DNA of 64,000 nt, from NCBI RefSeq assembly GCF_023078455.1, contig NZ_CP095740.1, forward strand, positions 1,972,001 through 2,036,000. Reading direction: 5' to 3'. The notes below the pieces were generated by a model, which saw only the letters and a list, made by a program, of their open reading frames with translations, was not told the DNA's origin and did not search any database. Origin of the DNA: Luteibacter aegosomatis. Its GTDB lineage: Bacteria > Pseudomonadota > Gammaproteobacteria > Xanthomonadales > Rhodanobacteraceae. Of the stretch, positions 2-27,544 are shown one piece after another. The number at the start of each line of letters is the position of its first letter. Position 1 is the first letter of the stretch. The position numbers and the translations under genes were made by a program.

Positions 2-175
2 CAGGGCGCGGTGTCCCAGGTGTTCCCGCTGGCCGCGTCCGACGATCCCAGGCGTGACGGCGACGTGGTCGCCGCCCTGCGCGGCAAGCGGCTTCCGGGG
101 GTGACGTCCCGTTTCGGTCCCGTGACCGTGCTGATCCGTCCGTCGTCCTCGACACCCTGCGGAGACGAAGGATGA
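2..175 (+). CDS. C-terminal end of a TonB-C-like protein (5' end outside window)
   Basis: An open frame runs in from the window edge and stops at a TGA that overlaps the ATG of the sigma-factor gene (ATGA), so it is translationally coupled to it. The 57 visible residues resemble the end of a TonB C-terminal domain. The stretch SDDPRRDGDVVAALR can be laid against SGNPRTDEAVLDVLR of the TonB at 5689-6354 with the same S-x-(N/D)-P-R-x-D-x-x-V-x-x-x-L-R pattern, and both end with a PVxVxIR strand. Position directly before fecI/fecR-type genes fits a VreA-like signalling receptor without a barrel. The N-terminal part is not visible, so that identity is inference; an ordinary TonB-like protein is the alternative. 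Confidence 0.5.
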   Translation, partial: QGAVSQVFPLAASDDPRRDGDVVAALRGKRLPGVTSRFGPVTVLIRPSSSTPCGDEG

Positions 176-717
176 CCTCCATGGATACGACCCTCCTCGG
201 CGTGTTCGTCGACAACTACGAAAACTTCCGCCGGCGCTTGCGCCGCCGGCTCCGCTCGGACGACCTCGCCGACGACGTGATGCAGGAGACCTTCCTGCGC
301 GTGGAAAAGCTCGATCGTTCCGAGGAGCGCGCCGAGCATCCCACGGGCTATCTGTTCCGCATGGCGCTGAACATGGCCGTGGACCACCATCGTTCGCAGG
401 GACGCCTGCTCACCGGCGACGAAGTCAACGATCTGATCCACGGCATCGACGACACGCTCGATCCGCCGACCGTGCTCGCTTCGCGCCAGGACCTCGTGGC
501 CCTCGCCGACGCCATGGATTCGCTCACCCGTCGACAGCGGGAGATCCTCATGGCCGCGCGCGTCGACGAACAGCCGCAAGCCGATATCGCCGATCGCTTC
601 GGCATCTCCCTTCGCATGGTCGGCAAGGAACTGAAGAGGGCGTTGGACATCTGTGCCGAAAAAGTGGGACGTAAGTCCGTTCAGCGGTTCGGTCCGGGCG
701 CCGGTGGATCGTCATGA
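172..717 (+). CDS. ECF-family RNA polymerase sigma factor (FecI-like)
   Basis: A 181-residue sigma-70 factor of the extracytoplasmic-function class, expected to direct RNA polymerase to a small regulon when released by its anti-sigma partner. Region 2 lies at about residues 8-48 (DDLADDVMQETFLRVEKL) and the region 4 helix-turn-helix at about 112-165 (LTRRQREILMAARVDEQP, then ADIADRFGISLRMVGKEL). Length is typical. GGAG at 161-164 precedes the ATG at 172; a second in-frame ATG at 181 is possible. It overlaps the upstream partial gene and the downstream fecR by 4 bases each, so the three form one transcript. The TpsB, ExbB/D, TonB and TpsA genes behind it are the likely regulon, by analogy with cell-surface signalling systems. 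Confidence 0.93.
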   Translation: MTSMDTTLLGVFVDNYENFRRRLRRRLRSDDLADDVMQETFLRVEKLDRSEERAEHPTGYLFRMALNMAVDHHRSQGRLLTGDEVNDLIHGIDDTLDPPTVLASRQDLVALADAMDSLTRRQREILMAARVDEQPQADIADRFGISLRMVGKELKRALDICAEKVGRKSVQRFGPGAGGSS

Positions 718-1697
718 CCGGTATGGACACGACGACGATCCACGAGAGCGAGCGCCAGGCACGGGCATGGCTCGTGCACCTGACGTCCGGCACGGCCACG
801 CGCGAGGACGGCGAGGCCTTCCGCCGCTGGTGCCTGGCCAGCCCACAGCATGCGCAGGCGTTCGCGCGCATGCGGCAGATGTGGGAAGACATCGGGCCTG
901 CCCTGGTACATCGGCGTAGCGTTCGCGAACGCGGCGAACGCGGCGAGCGCGCGCCTCCGCGCCACGAGGTGCGCATGGGACGCCGTGCCTTTCTCGCCAC
1001 GGCGGTCGCGGCGTCGGTCGCTGCCGTCGTTCTCGCGCGCCACGGCTTTCCGCTGGGCGATGCCTCCGGCGACCGGGGACTGCGCACGGCGATCGGCGAG
1101 CAGAAGCACGTGGAAGTCGGCCGGGGCGTGGCCCTGGAGATGAATACGAACACCGACATCGGCCTGCGTTCGAGCGCGGGCGAGGTCACGGGCATGCGCC
1201 TGCGCGAGGGCGAGGCGGTGGTGCGCATCGCCCCGTCGCGCACCGATCCCTTCGTGGTCGAGATGGACGACGCGCGCGTGGTGTCGGCACCGGGCGCATC
1301 GTTCGCCGTGCGCTGCGTGGACGGCCGTTCGGCGGTCACTTGCCTCGACGGACAGGCCGTGCTCGTGCGTGGCGTGGAAACGACGCGGGTGAAGCCTTCG
1401 CAGCAGGTCGCGTTCGACGATGCCGGTATCGCCGCGCCCGTGGCGGTGAACCCCGAGACGGCACTGGCATGGCGTAGCCGCGTACTCATCTACGACAACC
1501 TGCCTTTGTCCGACGTGGTCGCCGACATCAATCGCTATCGTCCGGGCCGCATCCTGATCACCGATCCCGACCTCGGCGAGCGTCGCGTGCATGCGCGCTT
1601 CACCCTCGACCAGATGGCCGATGTCGCCACCCTCATCAAGGACGCCTACGGCGCGCACGTGACGCGCCTTCCGGGCGGCTGGGTCTTGCTGAGCTAA
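714..1697 (+). CDS. FecR-family anti-sigma / transmembrane signal transducer
   Basis: A 327-residue FecR-type regulator that would bind the ECF sigma factor in the cytoplasm and receive a signal in the periplasm. Residues 8-55 form the DUF4880-like cytosolic domain (ARAWLVHLTSG, FRRWCLASPQHAQAF), residues about 92-108 are a single membrane segment (AFLATAVAASVAAVVLA), and about 115-215 the FecR domain. The C-terminal portion (LPLSDVVADINRYRPGRI) resembles the STN/secretin-type fold common at the end of FecR proteins. It overlaps the sigma gene by ATGA. A start at ATG 723 is an alternative. No TonB-dependent receptor gene follows; a TPS system does, which is the unusual point of this locus. 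Confidence 0.92.
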   Translation: MTGMDTTTIHESERQARAWLVHLTSGTATREDGEAFRRWCLASPQHAQAFARMRQMWEDIGPALVHRRSVRERGERGERAPPRHEVRMGRRAFLATAVAASVAAVVLARHGFPLGDASGDRGLRTAIGEQKHVEVGRGVALEMNTNTDIGLRSSAGEVTGMRLREGEAVVRIAPSRTDPFVVEMDDARVVSAPGASFAVRCVDGRSAVTCLDGQAVLVRGVETTRVKPSQQVAFDDAGIAAPVAVNPETALAWRSRVLIYDNLPLSDVVADINRYRPGRILITDPDLGERRVHARFTLDQMADVATLIKDAYGAHVTRLPGGWVLLS

Positions 1698-1741
1698 TCC
1701 ACCCGTCGGCCGGAACCGCCGGGACGATGAATTTTTCGTGA

Positions 1742-1789
1742 CAACGGTTCAGTGCCACCCGGGTCCGCGCGTCTTGTGGGCAACGGTTC
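1742..1789 (+). promoter_or_regulatory. direct repeat CAACGGTTC ahead of tpsB
   Basis: Two perfect copies of CAACGGTTC start at 1742 and 1781, 39 bases apart, in the 138-base gap between fecR and the tpsB start. GGAACC at about 1711-1716 upstream resembles an ECF-type -35 element, but no well-spaced -10 can be fixed. The repeat may be an operator or promoter part for the secretion operon. This is a weak, sequence-only call. Confidence 0.3.
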
Positions 1790-1835
1790 GACAGGGGAAG
1801 GTCTCAGTGGCTACACGAGCAGTACGGGTGCGCGC

Positions 1836-3446
1836 ATGATGCGTGTCACGACCTCGCGGAGCATGCGCGCTCTCGCGCTGGCCGTCGCGTTCGTCTTCGT
1901 GCCGGATGTGTCGGCCCAGGAGGCACCGCCATCGTTCGACGTGAACGAATACGTCGTCGACGGCAACACCACGCTGCAGGCGCTCGACATCGAAACGGCC
2001 GTCTATCCGTTCCTGGGGCCGGGCAAGTCGATGAACGACGTCGGCGCCGCGCGCGACGCCTTGCAAAAGGCCTATCAGGCGAAGGGCTACCAGAGCGTGG
2101 TGGTCGACATTCCCCGGCAGCAGGTGAAGGGCGGGGTGATTCGGCTCCAGGTCACGGAAAACGCCGTCGGTCACGTGAGGGTCGAAGGCGCTACCTATCG
2201 CTCTCCCAAGGCCATCCGGGACGCGGTGCCCGCGCTCGCCGAAGGCCAGGTGCCCGACTTCGGAAAGGCCCAGCAGCAGCTCACCGAAGTGAACGGGCGC
2301 GGCGGCGCGCAGGTGATTCCGGTGCTCGCGCCGGGCAGCCTTCCGCAAACGATGGACGTGACGCTGAAGGTCACCGACAGCTCGCCCTGGCACGCCAGCA
2401 TCGAGGCGAACAACGACCACAGCGTGAACACGCCGGAACTGCGCACCGTGGCCAGCGTGCGCAACGACAACCTGTTCCAGAAGGGACAGGCCGCCTCGCT
2501 CACCTACATCGTCGCACCGCAGGATCGCGATGCCGCCGAAGTCTGGGCCGGGTCGTACCTGGTTCCGCTCGATAACGCCTGGAGCGTGCTCGCTTCGGCA
2601 TACACGTCCAACAGCAATGCCAACGCGGTGGGCGGCACCACGGTGCTGGGCAAGGGTCACGCCTTCGGCTTCAGCTTCATCCGCAACCTGCCGACGCACG
2701 GCGAGTATTCGCAGTCGCTGTCGCTGGGGCTTACGCGCAAGCACTTCGACCAGAACATCAGCCTCGGCGGCCAGACTTCCAAGGCACCCATCACCTACAT
2801 CCCGTTGTCGGTCACGTATACGGGCCAGTCGATCGGCGAGACATCGGCGAGCACGGTGTCGGTGGCCGCCGTGGCCGGTTTCCGCGCGGGAGGAAGCACC
2901 TCGGCCGAATTCGACAACCAGCGCTACAAGGCGCGGCAGAACTTTTTCTACGTGAAGTTCGACGGCGGCCACACGCATACCTTCGATGACGGGTTCAGCC
3001 TGGCCGGCCGGCTGGGGCTTCAGTTGTCCACGTCCTCCCTCGTGTCCAGCGAGCAGTACGCGGCCGGTGGCGACAGCACGGTGCGCGGATACCTGGAAGC
3101 GGAAGAAACCGCCGACCACGGCGTGATCGGCTCGGTCGAATTCCGTTCGCCGTCGATCGCCTCGCGCATCGGCGGTTGGGTGAACGACTGGCGGTTCCAT
3201 GCCTTCGTCGACGCGGCGCACCTGGCGCTCATGAACGCGCTGCCGCAGCTGGTCGATCCGAAGAACCCCGACGCGGGCAGCACGCGCGTCACCCGTTACG
3301 ACCTTTCCAGCGTGGGCCTCGGCACGCGCTTCACGATTTTCAATATCGCGACCGGCGCGTTCGAAGTGGCCTATCCGTTCAACGACGGCCAAGCCACCAA
3401 GGCGCACGACACCCGCATCCATTTTTCACTCAAGGCCGATTTCTGA
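1836..3446 (+). CDS. Two-partner secretion outer-membrane transporter (TpsB; ShlB/FhaC/HecB family)
   Basis: Exports the large exoprotein encoded at 9394-21465 across the outer membrane. From the ATG at 1836 (or 1839) the 536-residue product has a signal peptide ending near VSAQ, POTRA-type domains at about 33-190 (FDVNEYVVDGNTTLQALDI; VRVEGATYRSPKAIRDA) and a 16-strand-type barrel to the end. TVRGYLEAEE carries the VRGY motif typical of loop 6 in Omp85/TPS transporters, and the chain ends in Phe (SLKADF) as expected for BAM substrates. An in-frame GTG at 1752 would add 28 residues before the signal peptide and was not chosen. No strong Shine-Dalgarno is visible. It begins the secretion part of the locus, 138 bases after fecR. 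Confidence 0.93.
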   Translation: MMRVTTSRSMRALALAVAFVFVPDVSAQEAPPSFDVNEYVVDGNTTLQALDIETAVYPFLGPGKSMNDVGAARDALQKAYQAKGYQSVVVDIPRQQVKGGVIRLQVTENAVGHVRVEGATYRSPKAIRDAVPALAEGQVPDFGKAQQQLTEVNGRGGAQVIPVLAPGSLPQTMDVTLKVTDSSPWHASIEANNDHSVNTPELRTVASVRNDNLFQKGQAASLTYIVAPQDRDAAEVWAGSYLVPLDNAWSVLASAYTSNSNANAVGGTTVLGKGHAFGFSFIRNLPTHGEYSQSLSLGLTRKHFDQNISLGGQTSKAPITYIPLSVTYTGQSIGETSASTVSVAAVAGFRAGGSTSAEFDNQRYKARQNFFYVKFDGGHTHTFDDGFSLAGRLGLQLSTSSLVSSEQYAAGGDSTVRGYLEAEETADHGVIGSVEFRSPSIASRIGGWVNDWRFHAFVDAAHLALMNALPQLVDPKNPDAGSTRVTRYDLSSVGLGTRFTIFNIATGAFEVAYPFNDGQATKAHDTRIHFSLKADF

Positions 3447-3484
3447 CCGGCAGGTCGGACCACAGATACCCAGGGGTTAACACC

Positions 3485-5266
3485 GTGAAACGACTCTTGT
3501 TCCTGACCTGCTTGCTGCTCGTCGGTGCCGTGCCGCTGGCGCACGCCGCCGACGCATCCTGGTGGAACCAGGATTTCGCCTTCCGCAAGGCCATCACCCT
3601 CGATACCACCGCGAAAGGCGCGAACGTGAACGCGGACGTGGGCCGCACGCCGGTGCTGATCCGCCTGCATTCGGGCAACTTCAGCTTCGACGGCGTGTCC
3701 GAAACCGGCGCCGACGTGCGCTTCGTCGCCTCGGACGACAAGACGCCGCTCAACTACCAGATCGAGAGCTTCGATCCCGTGCTGGGCGTGGCCCTGATCT
3801 GGGTGGATGTGCCGCAACTGGGCGCCGATGCGCAGCAGCAGATATGGATGTATTACGGCAATCCGAAGGCGCAGGGCGGGGACAAGGGCGCCGCGGTGTT
3901 CGACGCCGACTATGCCGCCGTCTACCACTTCGAGGATGCCGCCGGCACGCCGCCGCATGATGCGACGGCCTATGGCAATAACGCGGTGGGCAACGACATC
4001 GCCACCGTGGATGGCGTGATCGGCAAGGCCGCACGCTTCGACGGCACCAAGGTCGTGAACCTGCCGGGCAGCGTCGCAATGAACGTCGCCGAGGGCGGCA
4101 CCTTCACCTTCAGCGCCTGGGTGAAGCTCGACGCGCTTCCCGGAGGCTCCGCGATCGTCTACTCGCGCCGCCAGGCCGACGCGAAGTTCCTGGTCGGCTT
4201 CGACGGCGGCGTACCCTTCGTGCAGGTGGGCGACGCGACCAGCGCCGCCGGCGAGCCGGTCGCCGCCGCCGCATGGGTACACCTCGCGGTGACCGCCACG
4301 GCGACCGAGGTGCAGCTCTACGTCAATGGCCGCCCCTACGCCAAACTCGACACCGGGTTGCCCGCGCTGACCAGCCAGGCCACCCTGGGCGGCGACGCGC
4401 CGGGCCAGGCCGATGCCTTCGTGCCGTTCCTGGGCCAGATCGACGAAGTGCGCCTGTCGCGCATCGCCCGCCCGGTCGCCCTGGTCGCGCTCGATGCCCA
4501 GTCACAGGGCGCCGAGTCGAAGCTGCTCGCCTACGGCACCGACGAGAAGCAGTCGGGCGTCGGTTTCGGTTACTTCGGCATCATCGTCAAGTCGGTCACC
4601 ATGGATGCCTGGGTGGTGATCGGCATCCTGCTGATCATGGCGGCGATCTCCTGGATCGTGATGTGGCAGCGCGCCTCGTACGTGAACCGGGTCAGCGACG
4701 CCAACGACGACTTCCTCGAAGCGTTCCGCCAGCAGGGCCGCAACATCCTCGCGCTGTCGAAGGACCCGACCGCCTCGCGCCTGAAGGATTCGTCGCTCTA
4801 TCGTCTCTATAAGGTGGGCGCCGCCGAGGTGTGGAGCCGCCGCGACGGCGACGGCCACGATCACATCGCGTCGGAATCCATCGAGGCCATCCGCGCCACG
4901 ATGGATGCCACCCTGGTGCGCGAGAACCAGAGCCTCGCCAAGTCGATGGTGATGCTGACCATCGCGATCTCGGGCGGCCCCTTCCTCGGCCTGCTCGGTA
5001 CGGTGGTCGGCGTGATGATCACCTTCGCGGCCATCGCCGCCGCGGGCGACGTCAACGTCAACGCCATCGCGCCGGGTATCGCGGCCGCGTTGCTGGCCAC
5101 CGTCGCCGGCCTGTTCGTCGCGATTCCCGCGCTGTTCGGCTACAACTACCTGCTGATCCGCAACAAGAACGTCACCGCGAACATGCAGGTGTTCGTCGAT
5201 GAGTTCGTGACCCGCCTGGCCGAACAGCAGCGCGTCACCGCCCACCCGTCGGCCGTCGCGGCCTGA
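3485..5266 (+). CDS. DUF2341-LamG-ExbB fusion: proton-channel subunit with a periplasmic lectin-like head
   Basis: A 593-residue protein from GTG 3485, with AGGGG eight bases upstream. Order: signal peptide (residues 1-21, ending AHA), DUF2341-like region with the hallmark WWNQDFAFRKAITL start and IWMYYGNPKAQ, a concanavalin/LamG-like jelly roll at about 165-330 (YHFEDAAGTPPHDA, VQLYVNGRPYA, GQIDEVRLSRIA), a membrane helix at about 374-393 (WVVIGILLIMAAISWIVMW), then a MotA/TolQ/ExbB channel domain with helices at about 485-520 (GGPFLGLLGTVVGVMI) and 531-557. Standard ExbB lacks the large N-terminal exported part. With ExbD and TonB directly following, it should use the proton-motive force to drive a TonB-dependent step linked to the TPS pair; the head may sense or bind glycans (inference). 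Confidence 0.88.
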   Translation: MKRLLFLTCLLLVGAVPLAHAADASWWNQDFAFRKAITLDTTAKGANVNADVGRTPVLIRLHSGNFSFDGVSETGADVRFVASDDKTPLNYQIESFDPVLGVALIWVDVPQLGADAQQQIWMYYGNPKAQGGDKGAAVFDADYAAVYHFEDAAGTPPHDATAYGNNAVGNDIATVDGVIGKAARFDGTKVVNLPGSVAMNVAEGGTFTFSAWVKLDALPGGSAIVYSRRQADAKFLVGFDGGVPFVQVGDATSAAGEPVAAAAWVHLAVTATATEVQLYVNGRPYAKLDTGLPALTSQATLGGDAPGQADAFVPFLGQIDEVRLSRIARPVALVALDAQSQGAESKLLAYGTDEKQSGVGFGYFGIIVKSVTMDAWVVIGILLIMAAISWIVMWQRASYVNRVSDANDDFLEAFRQQGRNILALSKDPTASRLKDSSLYRLYKVGAAEVWSRRDGDGHDHIASESIEAIRATMDATLVRENQSLAKSMVMLTIAISGGPFLGLLGTVVGVMITFAAIAAAGDVNVNAIAPGIAAALLATVAGLFVAIPALFGYNYLLIRNKNVTANMQVFVDEFVTRLAEQQRVTAHPSAVAA

Positions 5267-5276: not shown

Positions 5277-5684
5277 ATGCGCGCCCAGGACGACGACAAG
5301 CCGTACGACGACATCAACATCACGCCGATGCTCGACCTGGCGTACGTGTTGCTCGTGATCTTCATCATCATGACCACCGCGTCGGTGCAGGGCATCAAGG
5401 TGAACCTGCCCAAGGCGTCGGCCGCGGTGAGCATGGCCAAGCCGCAGACCAAGGCCATCACCGTATCGGAGACCGGGCAGATCTTCCTCGACGCCTATCC
5501 GGTGACGTTGCCGGAACTGGAAAGCCGCCTGCGCTCGCTGAAGGCGCTCAACCCGGATTTTCCGGTGGTGGTGAAGGGCGATTCGACGGTCCAGTACCAG
5601 AAGGTGATGGACATCCTCGACCTGCTGCGTCGCGTCGACCTGCCGCAGGTCGGCCTGGTGACCGGCAAGGCGCCGAAGGACTAA
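5277..5684 (+). CDS. exbD: ExbD/TolR-family proton-channel subunit
   Basis: A 135-residue ExbD-type protein: short cytosolic N-terminus (DDINITPMLD), one membrane helix at about 18-37 (LDLAYVLLVIFIIMTTASV) including the conserved Asp of the proton path, and a periplasmic domain with the usual PVVVKGDSTVQYQKVM segment. GAGG at 5265-5268 overlaps the stop of the preceding ExbB-like gene, giving tight coupling. Together with that gene and the TonB at 5689 it makes a complete dedicated energising complex. A second, unrelated exbB/exbD pair lies at 57750-58844. Confidence 0.92.
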   Translation: MRAQDDDKPYDDINITPMLDLAYVLLVIFIIMTTASVQGIKVNLPKASAAVSMAKPQTKAITVSETGQIFLDAYPVTLPELESRLRSLKALNPDFPVVVKGDSTVQYQKVMDILDLLRRVDLPQVGLVTGKAPKD

Positions 5685-5688
5685 GCGC

Positions 5689-6354
5689 GTGAGCCCCAAA
5701 CACTCCCGTCGCTGGCTCGGCAAGGCGATCGGCGTCGCGGTGCTCGTCGCGATCGCCGCGCTGGTCTGGAACCTCGCGACCCACCGCGTCGGCGTGCGCC
5801 GCGAGGCGCCGCGCGTGGCGACGATCACGCCGTTGCCGCCACCGCCTCCGCCGCCCAAGGAAAAGCCGCCGGAGCCGAGGAAGACCGAAGCGCCCAAGCC
5901 CGTCGACGAAAAGCCCATGGATCAGCCGCAGAAGCCGGTCGATGCACCCAAGCCCACGAACGACGTGGCCAGGCAGGTCACGATGAACGCCGACGCCCAG
6001 GCGGGTGGCGACGCATTCAACATCGGCGCCGGTTCCGGCGGCGGCATGGTCGGCTCCGGCGGCGGCACCGGCACGGGCACGGGCAGCTACGGCCAGTACC
6101 TCGGTTACGCGATCCAGCAGGCGTTGCAGCGCGACGACCGCACCAGCCACCTGGTGTTCGACGTGCATGCCGATATCTGGCTCGACACCGACGGCAAGCT
6201 CAGCCGCGCCGAGCTCACCGAATCCAGCGGCAATCCCCGAACCGACGAAGCCGTGCTCGACGTGCTGCGCGCGATGCCCCGCATCGACGTGACGCCGCCG
6301 CCGTCGCTCGGCTTCCCCGTGCGTGTCTCCATCCGCGGCAAGCGCCCCGCATGA
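5689..6354 (+). CDS. tonB: TonB-family energy transducer
   Basis: A 221-residue TonB: cytosolic start, membrane helix at about 11-28 (AIGVAVLVAIAALVWNLA), a Pro/Lys-rich periplasmic spacer (PLPPPPPPPKEKPPEP), a Gly-rich hinge, and a TonB C-terminal domain (LSRAELTESSGNPRTDEAVL, ending FPVRVSIRGKRPA). It starts at GTG 5689 with AAGGA eight bases upstream, four bases after the exbD stop. No TonB-dependent receptor is encoded in the window, so its outer-membrane partner is unknown; the porin just downstream and the receptor-like gene upstream of the sigma factor are candidates by position only. Confidence 0.9.
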   Translation: MSPKHSRRWLGKAIGVAVLVAIAALVWNLATHRVGVRREAPRVATITPLPPPPPPPKEKPPEPRKTEAPKPVDEKPMDQPQKPVDAPKPTNDVARQVTMNADAQAGGDAFNIGAGSGGGMVGSGGGTGTGTGSYGQYLGYAIQQALQRDDRTSHLVFDVHADIWLDTDGKLSRAELTESSGNPRTDEAVLDVLRAMPRIDVTPPPSLGFPVRVSIRGKRPA

Positions 6355-6395
6355 CGACCGCCATGACACATCTTTCGCATACCCGGAGAGTTTGC

Positions 6396-9335: not shown

Positions 9336-9393
9336 TCGCCGCCACACGACATAGCGGCGCGTGAAGCCGCATCCTGCTTTTTCGAGGCCTGTC

Positions 9394-18300: not shown

Positions 18301-21300
18301 GTGACCTCGTCGGATCCCACGGCGACCGTAAACGGTGCGGCCGGTTCCGTCCTGCTCGGTGGCCATACGGACTACGCCGATCCCGACACCCGTCGCGTGC
18401 TCGCGGCGCCCACGGTGATCCGCACCGGCACCGGCGACATCGACATCGTGGCGGCAGCGGATGTCCGTTGGTCGGACGGACGCGCGCCCGCCGCCGTCTA
18501 CACGGCCGGCGCGCCGGCGGCGGGAACGACGGCCGACGGCACGGCCTCGATCCTCAAGCCGTCCGAGGTCGACGGCTTGAGCACATCGGCGGCGACCGAG
18601 CTGGTGGTGACCGGCGCCGTCAATCCGGAGGGCGCCGGCCATCTCGACGTATCCGCCGGTCGCGACATCGTGGGACGGCAGGACATGCTCGACACGACGG
18701 GCGACCTGACGGGCACGCCGGGTACGCCCACGGCGCAGTACTGGTGGCAGTGGATGCAGACGAACAACAGCGAAACACGTTCGTCCATCAACTTTGGTGC
18801 GTTCGACCAGGGATTGATGAGCGCGGGCGGCGACGTCAGCGTGCAGGCCGGTGGCGATATCCGTCAGTTGTCCGTGTCGCTGCCGACCACCTGGGCGATC
18901 TCCACCGACGCCAGCGGCGCGCCGCATCTCCAGACCTACGGTGGCGGCGACCTCGACGTAACGGCCGGCGGCGACATCCTCAGCGGCAGCTACTTCGTGG
19001 CCCGCGGCCAGGGCAATGTCCAGGCCGGTGGCCGGATCGGAAGCGATTTTTCGGTGAGCTACGCGACGCCGTCCGGTCAACCCGCGACGATGCCCGTATC
19101 CACCCTGATCGCCATGCAGGACAGCCAGTTCTCCATCGAAGCGGGGGAATCGGTGTCACTGGGCGGCATATTCGATCCGTCGTGGCTGGACTCCCGCGGC
19201 GTATCCGAATTGCTCCCCGCGCACCACGCGGACGGCCAGGGGTATTCGGCGGATTCGCGCATCGACGTCAGCGCGCTATCCGGCGACTTGACCTACGGCG
19301 ACCTCACGGCGCCCATCGCCCTGTTCGCCCCGGGGCTCGTCCCCAGTTCGGGAAACGCCGCCACCGACACGGCGGGCGACATCCTTCCGGCCACGGTCAA
19401 CTTCGCCGCCGCACAGGGCGATCTGTCCCTGCTGACCAGCGGCGAGCTGTTTCCCTCCGACCACGGCAATCTCAGCCTCCTCGCCCAAGGAAACGTCACG
19501 TTCGACATCGCCGGCCGGGGGCAGGCCACGCGGCGTTCATGGGGCATCATCGATGCACCGCTGGGTTCCATGGCATCGCCGCTGAACCTGTCGCCGTTGA
19601 TCGACGACTCCAACGGCGTGGCGACGCAAGCGCGCATCGCCGGCTACCTGTTCGGCACCGCGACGTCGGTCGATCCGGCGTTCCAGGCGTATTTCCACGC
19701 GGCCGAGCCGTGGCATGCCGACGACACCGACCCGGTGCGCGTCTATGCGTTGCAAGGGGACATCACCAACGGCACGGGCGGCGGCGTCGCGGCGGGATAC
19801 CTCATGCCCAACAAGGCCGCTCGCATCGAAGCGGGGCGCGACATCGTCGATCTCGCCTACGTCGGCCAGCAGATCCGGGGTTCGGACATGTCCGTGATCA
19901 AGGCCGGACGCGACATCGTCGACACGCCCCTCGGTGCACCCGTCGCGGCCGACCAGCCGAACAACGTTCTGCCCCTGATCGTCCAGGCGGGTCCGGGTTA
20001 TCTCTCCGTGCAAGCGGGCCGCGACCTCGGCCGGCTGGCCTCGCAGACCGACTTCTACGGCAATCAGGGGCAAATCCCCTTCAGCGTGCTTCTCGCGCCC
20101 GCCGGCGAAGGCGTCTACACGGGTATCGATACGGTCGGAAATATCTTCAATCCGCATCTTTCGGGGCAGGGCGCATCCATCGTGGCGTCGTACGGCGTGG
20201 CACCGGGCATCGACACCGCCGCGTTCATCGCCCGCTACATCGACCCGGCGGCCCCGAAACCCGCGGGCCTCGACGACGGTTCGGCGGCCCTGGTGACCTT
20301 CGTCGAGGGCTACGACGCCGGCCTCGGGGTGGATACCGGCCTGCTCGCCGATCGTCACGTACCGGACTACACCGTCGACGAAGCCTGGGCGCGATTCCAG
20401 TCGTTACCCGGCGAGGCGAAGGCCGTGTTCGTCCAGCAAACGCTGTTCCGCGTGCTGGCCCAGGTGGGCAAGGACTATGGCGACGCGAGCAGCCCGTTCG
20501 CGGGACAGTACGTGCGCGGTTACGACGCGTTGAACACCCTGTTCCCCGCGTCGCTCGGGTATACCGCCAATGGGCTCGACGGCGGCAGCAACGGGGCCCG
20601 GCAACTCGTGCACACGGGCGATCTCGATATTCGCGGCAGCACGATCCAGACCCAGAGAGGCGGCGACGTCTCCCTCCTCGCTCCGGGAGGCGAGGCCTTG
20701 CTGGGCAGCAGTTCGGCGCCGCCGGTCATCGTCGATCCGCGGGGCAACGTGCTTGCCGGACCGAATACGCAGGGCATCCTGACGCTGCAACGAGGCAACG
20801 TATCGATGTTCGGCGACGGCAGCACGCTGCTGGCGCAGAGCCGCATCTTCACCGAGCAGGGAGGTGACGTGACGATCTGGAGTTCCAACGGCGACATCAA
20901 TGCGGGCAAGGGGGCCAAGACCAGCAGCGAGATACCGCCCGTGCGCTATCTCTGCACGATCGACGCCTGGTGCCTGCAGGATGCGGCGGGACAGGTGTCC
21001 GGCGCGGGTATCGCGACGTTGCAGACGGTCGCCGGCGCGCCGGAAGGCTCGGTCTACCTGATGGCGCCGCGCGGCACCGTGGACGCCGGCGATGCGGGCA
21101 TTCGCGTATCCGGCAACCTCGTGGTGGCGGCGGCGCACGTCGCGAACGCGGACAACGTGCAGGTCAAGGGTGAGTCGATCGGCCTGCCCGTGGTGCAATC
21201 GGTCAACGTCGGCGCGCTCAATGCCGCCAGCTCGGCGGCGAGCGCGGCGACGAAAGCCGCCGAGGACGTCGCGCGTCAGCAGCAGAGCGACGCGCGCGAC

Positions 21301-21572: not shown

Positions 21573-21590
21573 CTGTCATCGTTCTGGCAT
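21573..21590 (+). promoter_or_regulatory. candidate Pho box (PhoB site) upstream of the PstS-like gene
   Basis: CTGTCAT (21573-21579), a 4-base spacer, then CTGGCAT (21584-21590) matches 13 of 14 defined positions of the PhoB consensus, two CTGTCAT-type heptamers 11 bases apart. It lies 94 bases before the PstS-like start, on the coding strand. A weaker match (10 of 14) sits at 21518-21535, 55 bases upstream. Two perfect GTTAACGC copies (21541-21548 and 21566-21573) flank the gap and may be another operator. No good -10 could be placed at the usual distance. Phosphate control of the downstream gene is inference from the site. Confidence 0.55.
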
Positions 21591-21683: not shown

Positions 21684-23054
21684 ATGTTCAAGCGTAACGC
21701 TACCCGCGCCAAGCTCGTTGCTGGTGCAGTCCTGCTGAGCCTCGGCCTGTCGGCCACCGGTGCCGCGATGGCCACCAACGTGTACGGCGGCGGCGCCACG
21801 CTGCCGGCCGGTGGTTACATGGGTTGGAACTTCGTCGCTTCCTCGCCGGCGAAGATCTTCTCCAGCAACGTGTCCTCGACGTCTTCCGGTGCCGCGACGG
21901 TCGCTACCGATTCGCTGATCGGTCATTGGGCCTCCACCACCGGCAACAGCGTGTCGTATTGCCAGACCGGCAGCGGCAACGGCAAGAAGATCTTCGACCA
22001 CTTCGACGGTTCGGTGGTGCTCATCGGTGCCACCGGTGCCTGCACGGGCACCACGAGCGGCTTCGGCGCCGCCTCGGGCGCTCCGGTCGACCCGCACTTC
22101 GCCGGCAGCGACGCGCCGATGTCGCAGCAGGAATTCAACGGGTTCACCAGCGGCGGCAAGAACACCGCCAACACCCAGCCGGTGCAGTTTCCGGCCATCG
22201 TGGGCTCGGTCGCCATCGCCTACAACAACCCGGATGCCAGCAGCCTGAACCTGACCGATGCCGCCGTGTGCCGCATCTTCGCCGGCCAGGTGACGAACTG
22301 GAACCAGCTCACCGCCGCCGACCGCAACCTGCCGTCGGGTTCCGCCGCGCTGCCGTCGCGTGCCCTCAAGCTCGCCTTCCGCAGCGACGGCAGCGGCACG
22401 ACGTTCTCGCTCGCCAACCACCTCAGCACCGTGTGCGGCAGCGCCGTCACCACCGGCCACTTCGTGACCGACCAGTCGTTCGCCGTGGTCGCCGCCGCGT
22501 TCACGCAGCCGACCGGTTCGATCGGTGCGAGCGGCAACACGGGCGTCGTGTCGGCCATCGAAGCCAACGCCGGTGCGATCGGCTACGCCGAAGCGGGCAA
22601 CCTGAAGAACACCTCGGGCCTGACCGCCACCAAGGTCGCGCAGGTCAACGGTTTCGACCCGTACGCGAACCTGCCGGCCGTCGTCAGCTTCACCACCACC
22701 GTGCTGCCGGATCGCGTCATCTCCGGCGTGAACGCCAACGGTACGCCGGCCCTGGCTACGCTGACCGGCGGTGCGTCGTCGGCCGCCGGTTGCATGCTGA
22801 TCGTCAACCCGGCCTCGTACGCGAACATCGCGAACCAGTATCCGATCATCGCCGTGTCGAACCTCATCGCCAACAACACCGGCAACGGTGCCGACGTCGG
22901 CGCCGTGCAGAGCCTGTTCTCGTCGCTCTACGGTTCCACGGCGCACGCCGGCGTCAATACCGTGGGCGCGGGTGCCGACGGCAAGGGCACGGGTTACGCC
23001 TTCGTCAATGCGCCGACCGCCGCCGCCAAGGTCACGTCCTGCATCAAGGCCTGA
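21684..23054 (+). CDS. PstS-like periplasmic phosphate-binding protein
   Basis: A 456-residue exported substrate-binding protein. A signal peptide ends at about residue 30 (TGAAMA), followed by the YGGGATLPA opening typical of PstS/DING-like proteins. Ligand-binding segments include VLIGATGACTG, CRIFAGQVTNWNQL and RSDGSGTTFSLANHL, which carries the S-G-T-T phosphate-binding pattern. A candidate Pho box lies upstream and a strong terminator downstream, so it is a single-gene unit. No pstCAB permease follows; instead type II secretion genes do. It may be a secreted or surface phosphate scavenger like those near the P. aeruginosa hxc locus rather than an ABC-transporter partner (inference). Confidence 0.87.
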   Translation: MFKRNATRAKLVAGAVLLSLGLSATGAAMATNVYGGGATLPAGGYMGWNFVASSPAKIFSSNVSSTSSGAATVATDSLIGHWASTTGNSVSYCQTGSGNGKKIFDHFDGSVVLIGATGACTGTTSGFGAASGAPVDPHFAGSDAPMSQQEFNGFTSGGKNTANTQPVQFPAIVGSVAIAYNNPDASSLNLTDAAVCRIFAGQVTNWNQLTAADRNLPSGSAALPSRALKLAFRSDGSGTTFSLANHLSTVCGSAVTTGHFVTDQSFAVVAAAFTQPTGSIGASGNTGVVSAIEANAGAIGYAEAGNLKNTSGLTATKVAQVNGFDPYANLPAVVSFTTTVLPDRVISGVNANGTPALATLTGGASSAAGCMLIVNPASYANIANQYPIIAVSNLIANNTGNGADVGAVQSLFSSLYGSTAHAGVNTVGAGADGKGTGYAFVNAPTAAAKVTSCIKA

Positions 23055-23087
23055 TCGCCGCGTGTTCGTCCATCTCAAGGACGAGGA

Positions 23088-23116
23088 GGAAGGGCCCCGC
23101 GGGGCCCTTCCTTTTT
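23088..23116 (+). terminator. Rho-independent terminator of the PstS-like gene
   Basis: An 11-base-pair perfect stem (GGAAGGGCCCC / GGGGCCCTTCC) with a 2-base gap is followed by five T residues, 33 bases after the stop codon. It should separate this gene from the pseudopilin operon. Confidence 0.9.
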
Positions 23117-23186
23117 CGCCGACGGTGCTTCGTCATGGGACCGACATCCCTGCCGCCGTATGCTGCGCATGAAGGAGGGTGACGCG

Positions 23187-23621
23187 ATGCGAGCAGGCCC
23201 GGCGAAGGGGTTCAGTCTGCTGGAAACGCTGGCGGCGATGTTCCTGCTGGCCTTGTGCTTCGGTGCCTTGATGCAGGCGGCGGGCGCGTCCATGGCACTC
23301 AATGCCCGGGCCGCCGATTACACGCAGGCCTCGCTGTGGGCGAGCGGTCTCCTCGATCGGGTGTATGTCACGGAGTTTCCCTCGGTGGGCATGCACCAGG
23401 GGCGGTTCGACGACACCTACCGATGGAGGATGGCCGTGTCGGAGCCTTCGGCGGAAAAAAACATCGAAACGACCATGCCGATGCGAATTTACCGGATCGA
23501 ACTCGTCGTCGAGTGGAGCGAGAAGGGAAAGCCCGCTTCGGCGCGATTCTCGACGGAGCGCACGGTGTCCGAGATTCGTGCGCGAAACGGTGGGGCGATT
23601 TCGCCGGGAGACGGCGGATGA
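23187..23621 (+). CDS. Type II secretion minor pseudopilin, GspI-like
   Basis: A 144-residue prepilin-type protein. The start at ATG 23187 is supported by AGGAGG at 23171-23176; ATGs at 23160 and 23169 are less likely. The N-terminus carries a prepilin-peptidase site: short basic leader, then G/FSLLETLAAMFLLALCFGAL with the conserved Glu at +5. After the helix comes the GspI-type segment (ASLWASGLLDRV). Minor pseudopilin I nucleates the tip complex with J and K, encoded next with overlapping reading frames. A weak Pho-box-like sequence (10 of 14) lies at 23130-23147. The family is diverse, so I rather than H rests on order and length. Confidence 0.78.
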   Translation: MRAGPAKGFSLLETLAAMFLLALCFGALMQAAGASMALNARAADYTQASLWASGLLDRVYVTEFPSVGMHQGRFDDTYRWRMAVSEPSAEKNIETTMPMRIYRIELVVEWSEKGKPASARFSTERTVSEIRARNGGAISPGDGG

Positions 23622-24280
23622 GGCGATACGCGGGCTTCAGCCTGATGGAGACACTGGCCGCCCTGGCCTTGCTCGCGCTTCTTCTGCTGGGTGTCATGGC
23701 CTCCCTCGATACCATCGCCCGATCGACGCGAGCGAGTCTGGCGACGACACAACGGCTCGACGAAGTGCGTGCCGCGCAGAACTACCTCAGGACGGCGCTA
23801 TCCGGCGCCCTCGCTTATCCATGGGCGCTGGATGCCGACAAGCGACCCCTGGTCTTCAGCGGCGACGTCCACTCGGCGATCTTCGTATCGCCCGGTCCCG
23901 GGTACCTGGCGAACGAGGGGCTGCAGCTGCAGAAGCTGTCGATCGAGGGAACGCCCGGAGACCAGCGCCTCGAAGTCGCCTTTGCGCCCATGGCGACGCG
24001 ACAGTCGGCCCAGGTGGTCCCCTCGGTGCCGGAAACCCTCGTCGATCACGTGGTGTCGGGGCGCTTCACCTACAGCGGTATCGACGACCTGGGGCAACCG
24101 GTGACCTGGAGTGCATCGTGGCCGTACCGGCGACGCATGCCCACGGCGATCGGCGTGGAACTCCAACTGCGTGGTGGCGTGCGCTGGCCCGCGTTTTCCG
24201 TGCCGTTACGCATGGATCCGGTGGCGACGAACGTGCGTGAAGCGCTCGCGCGCCTCATGGCATCGGAGAAGCCACCTTGA
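23618..24280 (+). CDS. Type II secretion minor pseudopilin, GspJ-like
   Basis: A 220-residue prepilin whose ATG overlaps the gspI-like stop (ATGA). The leader is only six residues (MRRYAG), then FSLMETLAALALLALLLLG with Glu at +5. The globular part (LDEVRAAQNYLRTALSGALA; WPYRRRMPTAIGVELQL) fits GspJ in size and position. Predicted role: member of the I-J-K tip of the type II pseudopilus in the inner membrane and periplasm. Its reading frame is open well upstream, within the gspI-like gene, but the overlapping ATG is the natural start. Confidence 0.8.
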   Translation: MRRYAGFSLMETLAALALLALLLLGVMASLDTIARSTRASLATTQRLDEVRAAQNYLRTALSGALAYPWALDADKRPLVFSGDVHSAIFVSPGPGYLANEGLQLQKLSIEGTPGDQRLEVAFAPMATRQSAQVVPSVPETLVDHVVSGRFTYSGIDDLGQPVTWSASWPYRRRMPTAIGVELQLRGGVRWPAFSVPLRMDPVATNVREALARLMASEKPP

Positions 24281-25182
24281 ACAGGCCTTTCCCGGCAGGA
24301 AAAGACAAGGGCGTGGCTCTTCTCGTCGTGCTTTGGGGATGCACCCTGGCGGCGATCACGCTGGGTGCGCTGTCGACCAGTGCGCATATCGAGGGTATGC
24401 AGGCGCTGGGGCAATACAAGCGAACGAAGGCATTCTATGCGGCTCAATCCGGCATGGAGCGAGCGGTATATCGACTCCGGGCAACGCAGCCTGCGCAGCG
24501 GTGGGCGGTCGACGGCAGGACGTACCGCTTTCGCGAAGACGCCGTCGACGTGGTCGTCAGCGTCACGGACGAGGACGGGAAGATCGACCTGAATCGGGCC
24601 TCGCCCGAAAGGATGGCGGCCCTGCTGAAAGCGGCAGGCGTGGCGCAAGGTGACGTGATGCGGTTCCGCGATGCGATCGTGGGTTGGGGAAAGCGCGGAA
24701 AGGCCTTCTCCGATTCGCTGCTCGCCGAAGGGGGCTTCACCAGCCTGGAAGAACTCAGGCGCGTGCCGGGCCTGCCCGCCGATGTCGTCGATCGGCTGGA
24801 TCCGGCGTTGACGTTGTGGTCTTCGTCCGAGCCGAACCTCGCCCACGCGCCGCCCGTGGTCGTCGCCGCGGTGACGGGTGCCGGCATGGAGGCTTCGACG
24901 GCTTATGTCGACGACGTTCGCGACATGCGGCCGGGGAGTGACGTGTTACCTCCAACACCGGGGAACGAGGGCTCCTATAGCGCCTCCGCATCGTCGTCCA
25001 GCGGCACCGTGACCATCGTTTCGACGGCGACGGTACAGGACGACCTGGCGGTGAGCATCCAGGCCACCGTCATGCTCAAAGGCGATCCTGGCGATCCGCG
25101 CGCCTATCGTGTGGTTCGATGGCGGGAATCGGGATCGTCGCGTCGGTCGGACTCACCGGCGGACGCTTCCATCGGGCACTGA
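24277..25182 (+). CDS. Type II secretion minor pseudopilin, GspK-like
   Basis: A 301-residue GspK-type protein starting with TTG that overlaps the preceding stop (TTGA). The N-terminal KGVALLVVLWGCTLAAITLG matches the GspK leader and helix, which characteristically lacks the usual Phe+1/Glu+5. A helix-hairpin-helix-like segment (KIDLNRASPERMAALLKAAG; GFTSLEELRRVPGLPADVVD) is typical of GspK. The C-terminal tail is Ser-rich. It caps the pseudopilus with I and J. gspL, gspM and gspN, which often follow, are absent here; the secretin gene follows directly. Confidence 0.87.
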   Translation: MNRPFPAGKDKGVALLVVLWGCTLAAITLGALSTSAHIEGMQALGQYKRTKAFYAAQSGMERAVYRLRATQPAQRWAVDGRTYRFREDAVDVVVSVTDEDGKIDLNRASPERMAALLKAAGVAQGDVMRFRDAIVGWGKRGKAFSDSLLAEGGFTSLEELRRVPGLPADVVDRLDPALTLWSSSEPNLAHAPPVVVAAVTGAGMEASTAYVDDVRDMRPGSDVLPPTPGNEGSYSASASSSSGTVTIVSTATVQDDLAVSIQATVMLKGDPGDPRAYRVVRWRESGSSRRSDSPADASIGH

Positions 25183-25264
25183 GGTGCCGATCGGGCACCG
25201 CATGAACTTGCCCCGCCGCGACTGTCCCTTGTTCCTGTCATCTACCGCTGCGACACTCCGGCGT

Positions 25265-27544
25265 ATGCGCCCATCCCGTCTCTCCGCTTCGATCGCCCTG
25301 GCCGTCCTCCTGACCGGATGCTCTACGTTGCCGCAGCCGGGCGACGATGGTGCGCTGCAACGGGAAGCGCTCGCGGGCACCGAAAAGCCGGCCCCCCGAT
25401 CCACACCCGTCGGAAGCGACCATCCGCCGCCGCCGGCCGTGGTAGCCCGGCCGGAGATCGACAGGGGCACGGGGCAATTCGTGAAGCCGGTAGGTCTGGC
25501 CAAGCCCAGGCCCGAAGGCGCGGGCACCGTCACCTTCAATTTCGAAAACCAGCCGGTCGAATCGGTGGTCAAGGCCATCCTGGGCGACCTGCTGCACGAG
25601 AACTATTCCATCGTCCCGGGCGTGCAGGGCAACGTGTCGTTCTCCACCTCGCAGCCGGTCACGGCCGAGCAGGCGCTTCCTATCCTGGAGACGCTGCTGT
25701 CGTGGACCAACAACGCGTTGGTGCGCACCAACGGACGTTACGTGGTGATGCCCTCGAAGGAGGCCGTACCGGGCAACGTGGTGCCGAGCATCGGTGCGAA
25801 CGCGCCGGCCGGCGGCCTGCAGGCACGGTTGTACCCGCTGCATTACATCTCGGCCACCGAGATGCAGAAGCTGATCAAGCCGTTCGCGCGGCCGGACGCC
25901 ACGTTGCTGGCCGATCCCACCCGCAACGTGCTGGTGATGGCGGGCACGTCCACGGAACTGGACAACTACGACCGCACGGTGAAGACGTTCGACGTCGACT
26001 GGCTCAAGGGCATGTCGGTGGGCGTGTTCAGCCTGCAACGCGCGGAGGTGAAAGACCTCACGCCCAAGCTCGACTCCCTCTTCGGCGAGAAGGGCAATAC
26101 GCCGATGGCGGGCATGCTGCGCTTCATTCCCATCGAGCGCACGAACTCGCTGGTGGTGATCAGCCCGCAGGCGGACTACCTCGATGAAGTGCGCAGCTGG
26201 ATCGATCGGATCGACCGGGGCGGCGGCAACGAGCCGCAGCTCTACGTCTACGACGTGCGCAACGTGCAGGCCGCGGACCTGGCCGATTACCTGTCGGACA
26301 TCTACGGCGGCGGTTCGGGCGGTGGCCGTTCGGGCGACAGCGGCGGCAGGGTCGGCCCCGGCCTCACCTCGGGCACGCTCGGCGGCGACAGCGACCTGGG
26401 CAACCGTGGTGGCTCGGGTCTGGGCAGCACCACCGGCGCGTTCGGCAATACGCCATCGTCCACGTCCTCGTCGGGCCTGTCGTCAGGCTTGTCCACCTCG
26501 ACGGGGTTCAACGGCTCCAACGGCACGGGTACGTCCGGCGGCATGGTCACCGGCGGACTCGGCGACGGCGGCTCCGGCGACACGGGGGGGACAGGCAATC
26601 GGCACGCCAGCGTCACCACCGACGAAGGCGTGCGCATTACCTCGGTCGACAACAACAACCAGCTGATGGTGCGTTGCCGTCCGTCGCAGTGGTCGGAAAT
26701 CGAACAGGCCATCAAGCGCCTGGATGCCGTGCCGCTGCAGGTGCAGATCGAGACGCGCATCCTCGAAGTGCAGCTCAAGGGCGACCTCGAATTCGGCGTG
26801 CAGTGGTACCTCGAGGGCCTGGTCGGCGGCACCAACGGCTCGGTGGGCCAGCCGGGCAACAAGCAGCAGTGGGCGCTGGGCAACGCGGGCAACGTCTACA
26901 ACCCGGCCAACGATGCCTTCTTCTACTCCTTCGTCAACAACAACATCGCCGTCGCGCTGCATGCGATGGAAACCAACGGAAACACCAAGGTGCTCTCCGC
27001 GCCGTCGCTGGTGGTGATGAACAACCAGAAGGCGCACATCCAGGTCGGCCAGCAGATCCCGATCACGCAGACCTTCGTCAACACCAACGCGAACACCGAC
27101 AATACGTTCGGCGAGGTGGAATACAAGGACACCGGCGTGATCCTCAACGTGCGCCCGCGCGTGAACCCGGGCGGCCTGGTCTACATGAACGTGAGTCAGG
27201 TGGTGAGTTCCCCGGGCCCGAAGGATCCGACCTCGGGCAACTTCCCGATCACCCAGCGCGAGGTCGCCACGCAGGTGGCGGTGCAGAGCGGGCAAACCGT
27301 GCTGCTGGGCGGCATGATCCAGCAGAACGACGTGCTTTCGGACACCGGTATCCCGGGCCTCAACCGCATACCCATTTTCGGCAGGTTGTTCGGTTCCACC
27401 TCCCGTAGCCGCGACCGTACGGAACTGCTGGTGCTGATCACGCCCAAGGTCATCACCGACGGCAGCGACGCCAAGCAGGTCACCGACGAATACCAGCGCA
27501 AGTTCGAGTCCCTGCGGCCGCTGCTCCACCCGCCGGCGGGCTGA
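25265..27544 (+). CDS. gspD: Type II secretion outer-membrane secretin GspD (XpsD-like lipoprotein)
   Basis: A 759-residue secretin from ATG 25265, chosen because it begins a lipoprotein signal (SASIALAVLLTGCSTLP, lipobox LLTG/C); an ATG at 25202 is a possible longer start. The N0 domain is at about residues 78-170 (TVTFNFENQPVESVVKAILG), then N1-N2 repeats (YPLHYISATEMQKLIKPFAR; FSLQRAEVKDLTPKLDSLFG), a Gly/Ser/Thr-rich insertion of about 100 residues (26305-26605) and the secretin domain (VQIETRILEVQLKGDLEFGV; VATQVAVQSGQTVLLGGMIQ). Its own lipid anchor resembles Xanthomonas XpsD, which can reach the outer membrane without a separate pilotin. It follows the K gene by 82 bases. Confidence 0.92.
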   Translation: MRPSRLSASIALAVLLTGCSTLPQPGDDGALQREALAGTEKPAPRSTPVGSDHPPPPAVVARPEIDRGTGQFVKPVGLAKPRPEGAGTVTFNFENQPVESVVKAILGDLLHENYSIVPGVQGNVSFSTSQPVTAEQALPILETLLSWTNNALVRTNGRYVVMPSKEAVPGNVVPSIGANAPAGGLQARLYPLHYISATEMQKLIKPFARPDATLLADPTRNVLVMAGTSTELDNYDRTVKTFDVDWLKGMSVGVFSLQRAEVKDLTPKLDSLFGEKGNTPMAGMLRFIPIERTNSLVVISPQADYLDEVRSWIDRIDRGGGNEPQLYVYDVRNVQAADLADYLSDIYGGGSGGGRSGDSGGRVGPGLTSGTLGGDSDLGNRGGSGLGSTTGAFGNTPSSTSSSGLSSGLSTSTGFNGSNGTGTSGGMVTGGLGDGGSGDTGGTGNRHASVTTDEGVRITSVDNNNQLMVRCRPSQWSEIEQAIKRLDAVPLQVQIETRILEVQLKGDLEFGVQWYLEGLVGGTNGSVGQPGNKQQWALGNAGNVYNPANDAFFYSFVNNNIAVALHAMETNGNTKVLSAPSLVVMNNQKAHIQVGQQIPITQTFVNTNANTDNTFGEVEYKDTGVILNVRPRVNPGGLVYMNVSQVVSSPGPKDPTSGNFPITQREVATQVAVQSGQTVLLGGMIQQNDVLSDTGIPGLNRIPIFGRLFGSTSRSRDRTELLVLITPKVITDGSDAKQVTDEYQRKFESLRPLLHPPAG

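Follow-up and report, generated by a model that had tools for sequence, protein, structure and literature searches.

A PUMA3-type cell-surface-signalling locus of Luteibacter aegosomatis whose adhesin, exoprotein and pseudopilin genes are exchanged as one block

The window analysed here is the whole stretch of 64,000 nucleotides from 1,972,001 to 2,036,000 of the one-contig 4.76 Mb genome (NZ_CP095740.1) of Luteibacter aegosomatis, a soil bacterium, and it carries a PUMA3-type cell-surface-signalling locus. The gene order is vreA-vreI-vreR, tpsB, exbB, exbD, tonB, porin, two unknowns, tpsA, a PstS-like gene (pstS), gspI-gspJ-gspK and gspD. Within this locus, tpsA-pstS-gspI-gspJ-gspK is inherited and exchanged between species as one block, which occurs in two allele classes. 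Six changes of class are required on a tree of five flank proteins, at least five of them forced by well supported branches and no fewer than with shuffled labels, and a single one on the tree of the block. A single class 1 clade is rejected on the flank data (p 4e-5). Such a joint exchange of adhesin, exoprotein and pseudopilus-tip genes was not met in the literature searched, which left most subscription papers uncovered. Together with the presence of gspI-gspJ-gspK and gspD at a locus whose genome has GspE and GspG over cut-off only in a distant Xps-type type II secretion system (T2SS), it is what is new here. The best explanation of the whole is probably a PUMA3-type locus with an operon that joins a Ton system to two-partner secretion (TPS; type Vb), with GspI, GspJ and GspK capping the pseudopilus of Xps and with exchange of the block. 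All genes named by an earlier note for positions 2 to 27,544 were found again by reading frames and family scans, and all lie on the + strand as it had stated:

1..175, +, 3' end of the VreA-like gene (whole gene G000:C1:1971492-1972175 = L007:15492-16175), periplasmic STN and TonB-like C-terminal domain
172..717, +, VreI-like extracytoplasmic function (ECF) sigma factor, Pfam Sigma70_r2 and r4_2
714..1697, +, VreR-like FecR-type anti-sigma factor, Pfam DUF4880 and FecR
1727..1775, +, composite promoter before tpsB with pho-box-like, -35-like and -10-like elements
~1836..3446, +, TpsB transporter, POTRA_2 and ShlB/FhaC family
~3485..5266, +, ExbB with DUF2341-LamG_3 head, periplasmic by topology
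5277..5684, +, ExbD, family match
5689..6354, +, TonB, TonB_2 C-terminal domain
6351..8102, +, Porin_5, 605 bits
8112..8738, +, unknown 1 (u1), predicted exported coiled-coil protein
8793..9335, +, unknown 2, 3' of u1, no family match
9361..21465, +, TpsA, 4034 aa, TPS domain at the start and DUF3739 near the end; first gene of the exchanged block
21574..21590, +, pho-box-like repeat TGTCATN5TGGCAT, 5' of the PstS-like gene
21684..23054, +, PstS-like/DING-related exported binding protein, PBP_like_2
23160..23621, +, GspI-like minor pseudopilin, NCBIfam 51 bits, below cut-off
23618..24280, +, GspJ-like minor pseudopilin, NCBIfam 96 bits, below cut-off
24277..25182, +, GspK-like minor pseudopilin, NCBIfam 49 bits, below cut-off; last gene of the exchanged block
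~25265..27544, +, GspD secretin, second copy, which behaves as flank and not as block

Two allele classes of one exchanged block

The Luteibacter sample comprised 23 genomes, 19 with the PstS-like gene at the locus and four without it. A first comparison of six genomes gave uniform flanks around tpsA-pstS-gspI-gspJ-gspK in two classes; in the full sample, class 1 has eight genomes, that of the window included, and class 2 has 11. Mean protein identity between the classes is 40% for PstS (range 37-44), 35% for GspI (31-41), 38% for GspJ (33-41), 34% for GspK (29-40) and 48% for the middle of TpsA (46-52), the means of the TpsA segments lying at 48-57%. The corresponding flank values are 80% for ExbB (68-96), 81% for the porin (72-97) and 77% for the downstream GGDEF-EAL gene (71-95). 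At the end of tpsA, in pstS and in gspJ, every within-class value exceeds every between-class value, and no genome mixes the classes by these three segments. GspI, GspJ and GspK were comparable in all eight class 1 genomes and in eight of the 11 of class 2, the contig of G120 ending early. TpsA measures 4006-4034 aa in class 1 and 4216-4534 aa in class 2. Its DUF3739 stretch (3801-4000) is the part best kept between the classes (73%), as though it contacted some partner outside the exchange.

The edges of the block are visible in DNA alignments of close relatives. Two such pairs, G160/G135 and G162/G140, align at 92% and 91% identity as far as the start of tpsA; from there only short stretches match, at 71-79%, until identity recovers to 93% and 88% in the interval that separates gspK from the next conserved gene. 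Within each class, distances in the middle and end of tpsA, pstS, gspI, gspJ and gspK covary (r 0.51-0.98), and the covariation of these genes with exbB ranges from -0.14 to 0.33. For pstS and gspK, r is 0.92 in class 1 and 0.82 in class 2 (permutation p <0.001); for pstS and exbB it is -0.09 and -0.07.

Several observations weigh against a block that moves as a functional unit. Strict separation of the classes fails for the start and middle of tpsA, gspI and gspK, the ranges of which touch. The left edge in G159/G153 falls some 0.8 kb into tpsA. In class 2, the N-terminal 500 residues of TpsA vary with the flanks (r 0.68 with exbB), and correlations of up to 0.50 link the porin to block genes. 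Two of the 19 genomes (G151 and G158) keep TpsA and PstS, with no GspI, GspJ or GspK found between pstS and the next gene. Furthermore, recombination in conserved flanks would yield sharp edges without co-adaptation. This is the ground of the main rival to a cassette function, in which only TpsA diversifies, as a surface antigen or receptor-binding adhesin, and pstS and gspI-gspJ-gspK are carried along without any tie between cargo and tip because recombination begins in the conserved genes on either side. Block edges at or near the closest conserved genes fit such hitchhiking, as do the size of tpsA, by far the largest gene of the block, and the two genomes just named. However, hitchhiking accounts poorly for block genes that, within one class, covary with each other rather than with the flanks, though the block itself offers homology, and for the lower between-class identity of GspI, GspJ, GspK and PstS (means 34-40%) compared with the TpsA segments. 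Hitchhiking is a serious possibility that falls short of an even chance. That the block is held together because cargo and tip must match is rather doubtful.

Additional genes occur in and next to the block in some strains. A YVTN-propeller-like gene, recognised by eye, lies between pstS and gspI in G074 and G163 and after gspK in G160, and G155 (L196) has a second PstS-like gene after gspK. In G161 (L198), pstS and gspI are separated by 4 kb of DNA containing two reading frames on the minus strand, of 795 and 420 aa.

Type II secretion parts and the PstS-like protein

An Xps-type system lies at 4.25 Mb, 2.3 Mb from the locus. Its E, F, G, M and D components score over the curated T2SS cut-off, H, I, J and K score below it, and L is a candidate by place; the scan excluded C and N. 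Only a single GspE and a single GspG exceed their cut-offs in the genome, and both belong to Xps; two further GspE matches, at 522 bits, fall below. A genome-wide search found neither GspE nor GspG near the locus, and F, H, L and M, which were not searched genome-wide, are absent from the reading frames scanned around it. Hence the locus contains neither a complete T2SS with GspE, F, G, L and M nor an adjacent full Hxc system, and only I, J, K and D were found. Because GspE and GspG over cut-off occur only in Xps, the locus parts cannot act alone, unless with unrecognised parts. Xps has an ATPase and a major pseudopilin, whereas the set at the locus has none of its own and sits with its likely cargo.

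GspI, GspJ and GspK of the window are 49%, 39% and 36% identical to those of the genome's own Xps, and the corresponding values for class 2 are 45%, 41% and 41%; the two locus classes share 38%, 41% and 33% with each other. The locus proteins score best against the Xps/GspK models of NCBIfam. According to the available part of PMC6211770, secretion requires GspI and GspJ, which make up the core of the pseudopilus tip. Provided that they function at all, the chance that GspI, GspJ and GspK are a spare tip lent to Xps is about even. Two findings count against the favoured explanation in general: the scores of GspI, GspJ and GspK stay below the NCBIfam cut-offs, and a motif devised here for phosphate-binding residues was not found in six of the 19 PstS-like proteins. 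The same part of PMC6211770 names GspC as the first recruiter of cargo, which does not favour a tip that reads its cargo.

The pseudopilins and the secretin may instead be the remnant of a once complete second, Hxc-like T2SS that is decaying or non-functional. The single GspE and GspG over cut-off in the genome, neither near the locus, and the lack of F, H, L and M among the frames scanned would suit a remnant. On the other hand, I, J and K were detected by tblastn in 16 of the 18 readable Luteibacter loci, at 29-81% identity, a count that does not extend to the integrity of each frame, and neither class is appreciably closer to the other than to Xps. A remnant is accordingly improbable, and a tip that works with Xps is retained as the preferred reading. 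Comparable borrowing is known: XphA/XqhA of P. aeruginosa is an alternative GspCD, an extra set of T2SS parts that depends on another system for its remaining components. In that case the doubled parts are GspC and the secretin; in Luteibacter they are the minor pseudopilins and the secretin.

The genome encodes four secretins. The other GspD copy lies just 5' of vreA (L007:12439-14910), about 28 kb from the one behind gspK. The two proteins are 93% identical over 384 aa and their DNA about 91%, a similarity that may reflect gene conversion or a recent duplication. Both copies are present in three of the five Luteibacter genomes fetched on both sides, that of the window included. At least eight of the 19 Luteibacter loci have gspD after gspK, or after pstS where gspI-gspJ-gspK is missing; in G120 and G161, coverage stops short of the next gene.

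The PstS-like protein reaches 88 bits against the NCBIfam PstS equivalog, the cut-off of which is 205. The nearest solved structures are PstS and DING proteins, and its N-terminal region is NVYGGGATLPAGG, which differs from the mature N-terminus DINGGG that defines DING proteins. A close parallel is the hxc-psp(DING)-Pflu2428 cluster of P. fluorescens SBW25, where, according to the available text of PMC2225411, a DING protein, phosphate-induced in that strain and secreted mainly by Hxc, is likewise encoded between T2SS genes and a haemagglutinin of about 4000 aa (4083 aa). The same text gives 11 hxc genes for that cluster, in contrast to I, J, K and D in Luteibacter, and describes hxcR itself as not phosphate-induced.

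The Ton-TPS core and its promoters

The PUMA3/Vre locus of P. aeruginosa (vreA-vreI-vreR, hxc, pdtA-pdtB, exbB2-exbD2 and PA0695-PA0699), correctly named in the earlier note, shares with the window the regulators, the TPS pair, ExbB-ExbD-TonB, the porin and small proteins. A TPS pair, ExbB-ExbD and a PA0696-like gene are linked here, Porin_5 being equated with PA0696 by place and not by direct comparison. TpsB has POTRA and FhaC-type domains and TpsA an N-terminal TPS domain, as type Vb systems do. The "TonB-C-like end" that the note had seen at 2-175 is real and is the tail of a VreA-like protein of 227 aa, whose gene starts 509 bases 5' of the window. This small periplasmic protein has a signal peptide, an STN domain (28.1 bits in Pfam against a cut-off of 28.4, with the NCBIfam FecA model covering the same part), a TolA/TonB-like C-terminal domain and no barrel, and the genes of an ECF sigma factor and a FecR-type anti-sigma factor adjoin. 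Its C-terminal 80 columns align with the operon TonB at an hhalign probability of 97.5% and 26% identity. Among seven TonB-bearing regions of the genome, the operon TonB alone gives E<0.01 (0.007), the others lying at 0.8 or above or giving no match.

Relatives were sought with an alignment of the ExbB fusion, using one genome per species. At least 593 stretches matched, 535 of which were confirmed; the best 80 are the named relatives, in which neighbours were scored within up to 10 kb on either side of the ExbB fusion. The genes tpsB and exbD lie beside exbB in all 80, and tonB, Porin_5 and u1 are present in 79, the exception being a contig of 4.1 kb. A YbjN-like gene occurs in 75 of the 80, 3' of u1, and a PpiC-like gene in 68; unknown 2, which has no family match, occupies the place of the YbjN-like gene of other lineages. 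The three genes vreA, vreI and vreR are all present within this distance in 18 of the 80. The named relatives include P. aeruginosa PA7 (L135), Achromobacter, Alloalcanivorax, Burkholderia, Cupriavidus and Dyella, so the linkage expected by the earlier note holds in xanthomonads, in pseudomonads and beyond, and its recurrence in 80/80 is more than chance. In the Luteibacter/Dyella loci L154, L161 and L170, no YbjN- or PpiC-like match was found and, unlike in PUMA3, another gene lies between u1 and tpsA.

The core also extends to plasmids and to a sample at the level of the order. Among 72,556 plasmid records, 21 match the ExbB protein, 11 of them over at least 80% of its length; copies occur in Klebsiella, Methylosinus, Variovorax and others, and eight loci were inspected, two without annotation in the stretch. 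The conjugative-typed plasmid pKqq_SB98_1 of Klebsiella quasipneumoniae (L027) carries a whole PUMA3-type Ton-TPS operon at 951-24986, together with vreAIR-like genes and a pair of haemagglutinin genes, each about 12.4 kb long. In the order-level sample, 17 of 151 genomes gave a DUF2341 match, and 13 of these, that of the window included, have tpsB-exbB-exbD-tonB-porin together; three were not opened, and none of the five genes was found in G127. Six of the 13, all of another family, had no vreA or vreI within the 40 kb fetched. Linkage in the named relatives, on plasmids and across the order indicates that the Ton-TPS core is widespread. It is of a known kind and known in outline, and its breadth is now better evidenced: the available part of Llamas 2009 (PMC2729926) describes PUMA3 in P. 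aeruginosa and notes homologues with TPS, ExbBD and PA0696 in other bacteria, including some without a full hxc set, from which an adjacent full Hxc appears typical of Pseudomonas and not defining. The ExbB-ExbD-TonB-porin genes, taken earlier as parts added in this lineage, turn out to vary least of all across loci of this kind, that of P. aeruginosa PA7 among them. The inclusion of type II secretion in the conserved system stands for I, J, K and D of the window and does not for the relatives: it is a variable part, and T2SS matches within 10 kb are rare in the 80 (GspG 4, GspD 3, GspE 1 and GspF 1, by a count of low sensitivity).

The DUF2341-LamG head of ExbB lies between a signal-peptide-like stretch and the first long membrane helix, which places it in the periplasm. 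The model of this protein has a middling mean predicted local distance difference test score (pLDDT) of 71. The same DUF2341-LamG-ExbB fusion is encoded in PA7; the function of DUF2341 is left open in the available text of PMC12505986. The porin is modelled with 16 strands, N-terminal helices and no plug domain (mean pLDDT 62, again middling), and its best fold matches are porins such as OmpM1, MOMP and OmpK36, at modest TM-scores; since the model shows no plug, the porin may be an unusual client of TonB. No plugged TonB-dependent outer membrane receptor was found among the locus genes scanned.

A private ExbB-ExbD-TonB motor could drive import through the porin, with TpsA and TpsB merely co-regulated; the lectin-like head might, for instance, bind the phosphorylated sugars or polymers to be taken up. 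The genes tonB and porin adjoin in all 79 loci long enough to show both, the single Porin_5 match of the genome sits at this locus, and the N-terminal part of the porin has a conserved GDVRVPYIPE stretch that may, by resemblance, be a TonB box. Known TonB-dependent transporters carry a plug, however, whereas the porin model has none and is matched best by porins, and tpsB is linked as tightly as the porin. Import of this kind is thus considered somewhat unlikely.

The promoter before tpsB combines pho-box-like ATGAATTTTTCGTGACA (1727-1743), -35-like GGTTCAGT (1746-1753) and -10-like CGTCTT (1770-1775), giving the pattern RTGAANTTTTNRTGACA, then GGTTCAGT-like, then CGTC at 25 or 26 bases. With up to three mismatches allowed, the genome contains a single copy of its 26-bp core. 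At up to two mismatches, the composite promoter lies within 1.2 kb 5' of tpsB in 63 of the 80 named loci, and the reversed pattern in none. In 61 of these 63, the -10-like tetramer (CGTC or one of five near variants, for which about 5% is expected by chance) stands at offset 25 or 26. The element matches 100 times at up to two mismatches in 2.47 Mb of neighbourhoods, in which two genomes are counted twice (L170/G140 and L161/G039), as against three matches in one Markov control. It is exact in all 11 Luteibacter with the region upstream of tpsB covered, eight more being outside the coverage, and it precedes both tpsB and tpsA in Klebsiella L027 and Dyella L154 and L161. In PA7, the element lies 1.06 kb 5' of tpsB; phdA presumably stands between the two, as is expected from its place and not from annotation.

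Upstream of vreA, outside the window, a pho-box-like repeat TGTCATN5GGTCAC lies 112 bp 5' of the start, and TGTCAY-N5-TGTCAY is present there at up to one mismatch in five of the six Luteibacter examined. Genome-wide this pattern has no exact occurrence and 21 sites at one mismatch, as against three for the reversed pattern. The pho box 5' of the PstS-like gene recurs at the same place in G074, again at up to one mismatch. A pho box before vreA and a pho box with a VreI-type promoter before target genes are thus present by sequence, as in PUMA3 of P. aeruginosa, where a pho box and an ECF promoter also go together. In the available part of the work of Quesada and colleagues (PMC4971064), the pho box, -35 and -10 of P. 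aeruginosa pdtA were mutated, and PhoB is needed for VreI binding and transcription. The order and rough spacing of the elements in the pdtA and phdA promoters fit the tpsB promoter here, although pho box and -10 are about 28 bases apart in P. aeruginosa, as reckoned from the mutated positions, versus 25-26 here. This conserved element order suggests joint control by PhoB and VreI, and the phosphate link proposed earlier is supported; control of the locus by phosphate and VreI is likely. Exceptions that weaken it are the lack of a pho box at up to one mismatch 5' of vreA in G120 and in the plasmid loci L025, L027 and L029, the lack of one 5' of pstS in four of six Luteibacter, and 17 of the 80 loci in which the promoter was not found at up to two mismatches (one clipped, mostly Burkholderia-like). 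In L041, L042, L043 and L044, four of the six genomes of another family in the order without vreA or vreI in the stretch fetched, a TGTCAY-type repeat lies on the opposite strand about 125-200 bp before the first aligned residue of TpsB; these loci are perhaps under Pho control without Vre.

The locus might also be regarded as a simple transfer of P. aeruginosa PUMA3, T2SS included, into Luteibacter, given the same regulators, TPS, Ton and porin genes and promoter layout. PUMA3 has a full Hxc, whereas the Luteibacter locus lacks one and has TpsA, the PstS-like protein and GspI-GspJ-GspK in an exchanged block; the T2SS part of a transfer is already contradicted by the GspE and GspG searches. 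The locus pseudopilins, with their best scores against Xps/GspK models and 36-49% identity to those of Xps, though not compared with Hxc directly, also speak against it. A simple transfer is very improbable.

Some gene calls were revised or dropped. The longest reading frame of tpsB, from 1752, was rejected since this start falls inside the promoter, and a start of exbB at 3176 was too early, overlapping tpsB. Three frames upstream (L007:8228-10899), at first taken as genes, have no family match and look like antisense frames. Rfam gave no match at gathering scores within the window. Ordinary neighbours are a SelO-type adenylyltransferase (29944-31566), a ComEC-like gene (competence-protein/metallo-beta-lactamase-fold, 51837-54143) and a GH92 glycosidase (54225-57563).

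Proposed mechanism and significance

By homology to P. aeruginosa, low phosphate would activate PhoB, which would turn on vreA-vreI-vreR; VreA, a soluble periplasmic protein with STN and TonB-type domains, would free VreI from VreR, and PhoB and VreI would jointly fire the promoter before tpsB. The signal of VreA in P. aeruginosa is described as still unknown in the available part of PMC7035377. The operon would then yield TpsB, a private ExbB-ExbD-TonB motor with a lectin-like periplasmic head and a plugless porin, the giant surface protein TpsA being made by read-through. From what is known of these families, TpsB is expected to export TpsA, and ExbB-ExbD-TonB to act as a proton-driven motor. 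We know of no role assigned to this private TonB motor. Because VreA and TonB carry the same kind of domain, they may compete for one outer-membrane partner; as a guess, VreA reports when the partner of TonB is free.

In Luteibacter, the operon appears to continue into the PstS-like exoprotein and the spare minor pseudopilins, which most likely would cap the pseudopilus of the chromosomal Xps for export of the PstS-like protein. The block may, tentatively, be a specificity cassette: exoproteins (TpsA, the PstS-like protein and, in some strains, a propeller or a second PstS) would travel with their own pseudopilin tip, which retargets Xps under phosphate starvation, and two incompatible types would be exchanged. 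Such an exchange is likened to that of effector-tip sets in contractile injection systems.

The comparison defines a set nearly always kept together, namely TpsB, the DUF2341-LamG-ExbB fusion, ExbD, TonB, Porin_5 and u1, and the composite promoter is a signature by which the regulon can be sought elsewhere. How a T2SS recognises folded cargo is an old open question. If the cassette reading is true, this harmless soil bacterium and its close relatives offer two natural cassettes, exchanged several times with cargo and tip joined, and these would provide a direct test of cargo recognition by the T2SS.

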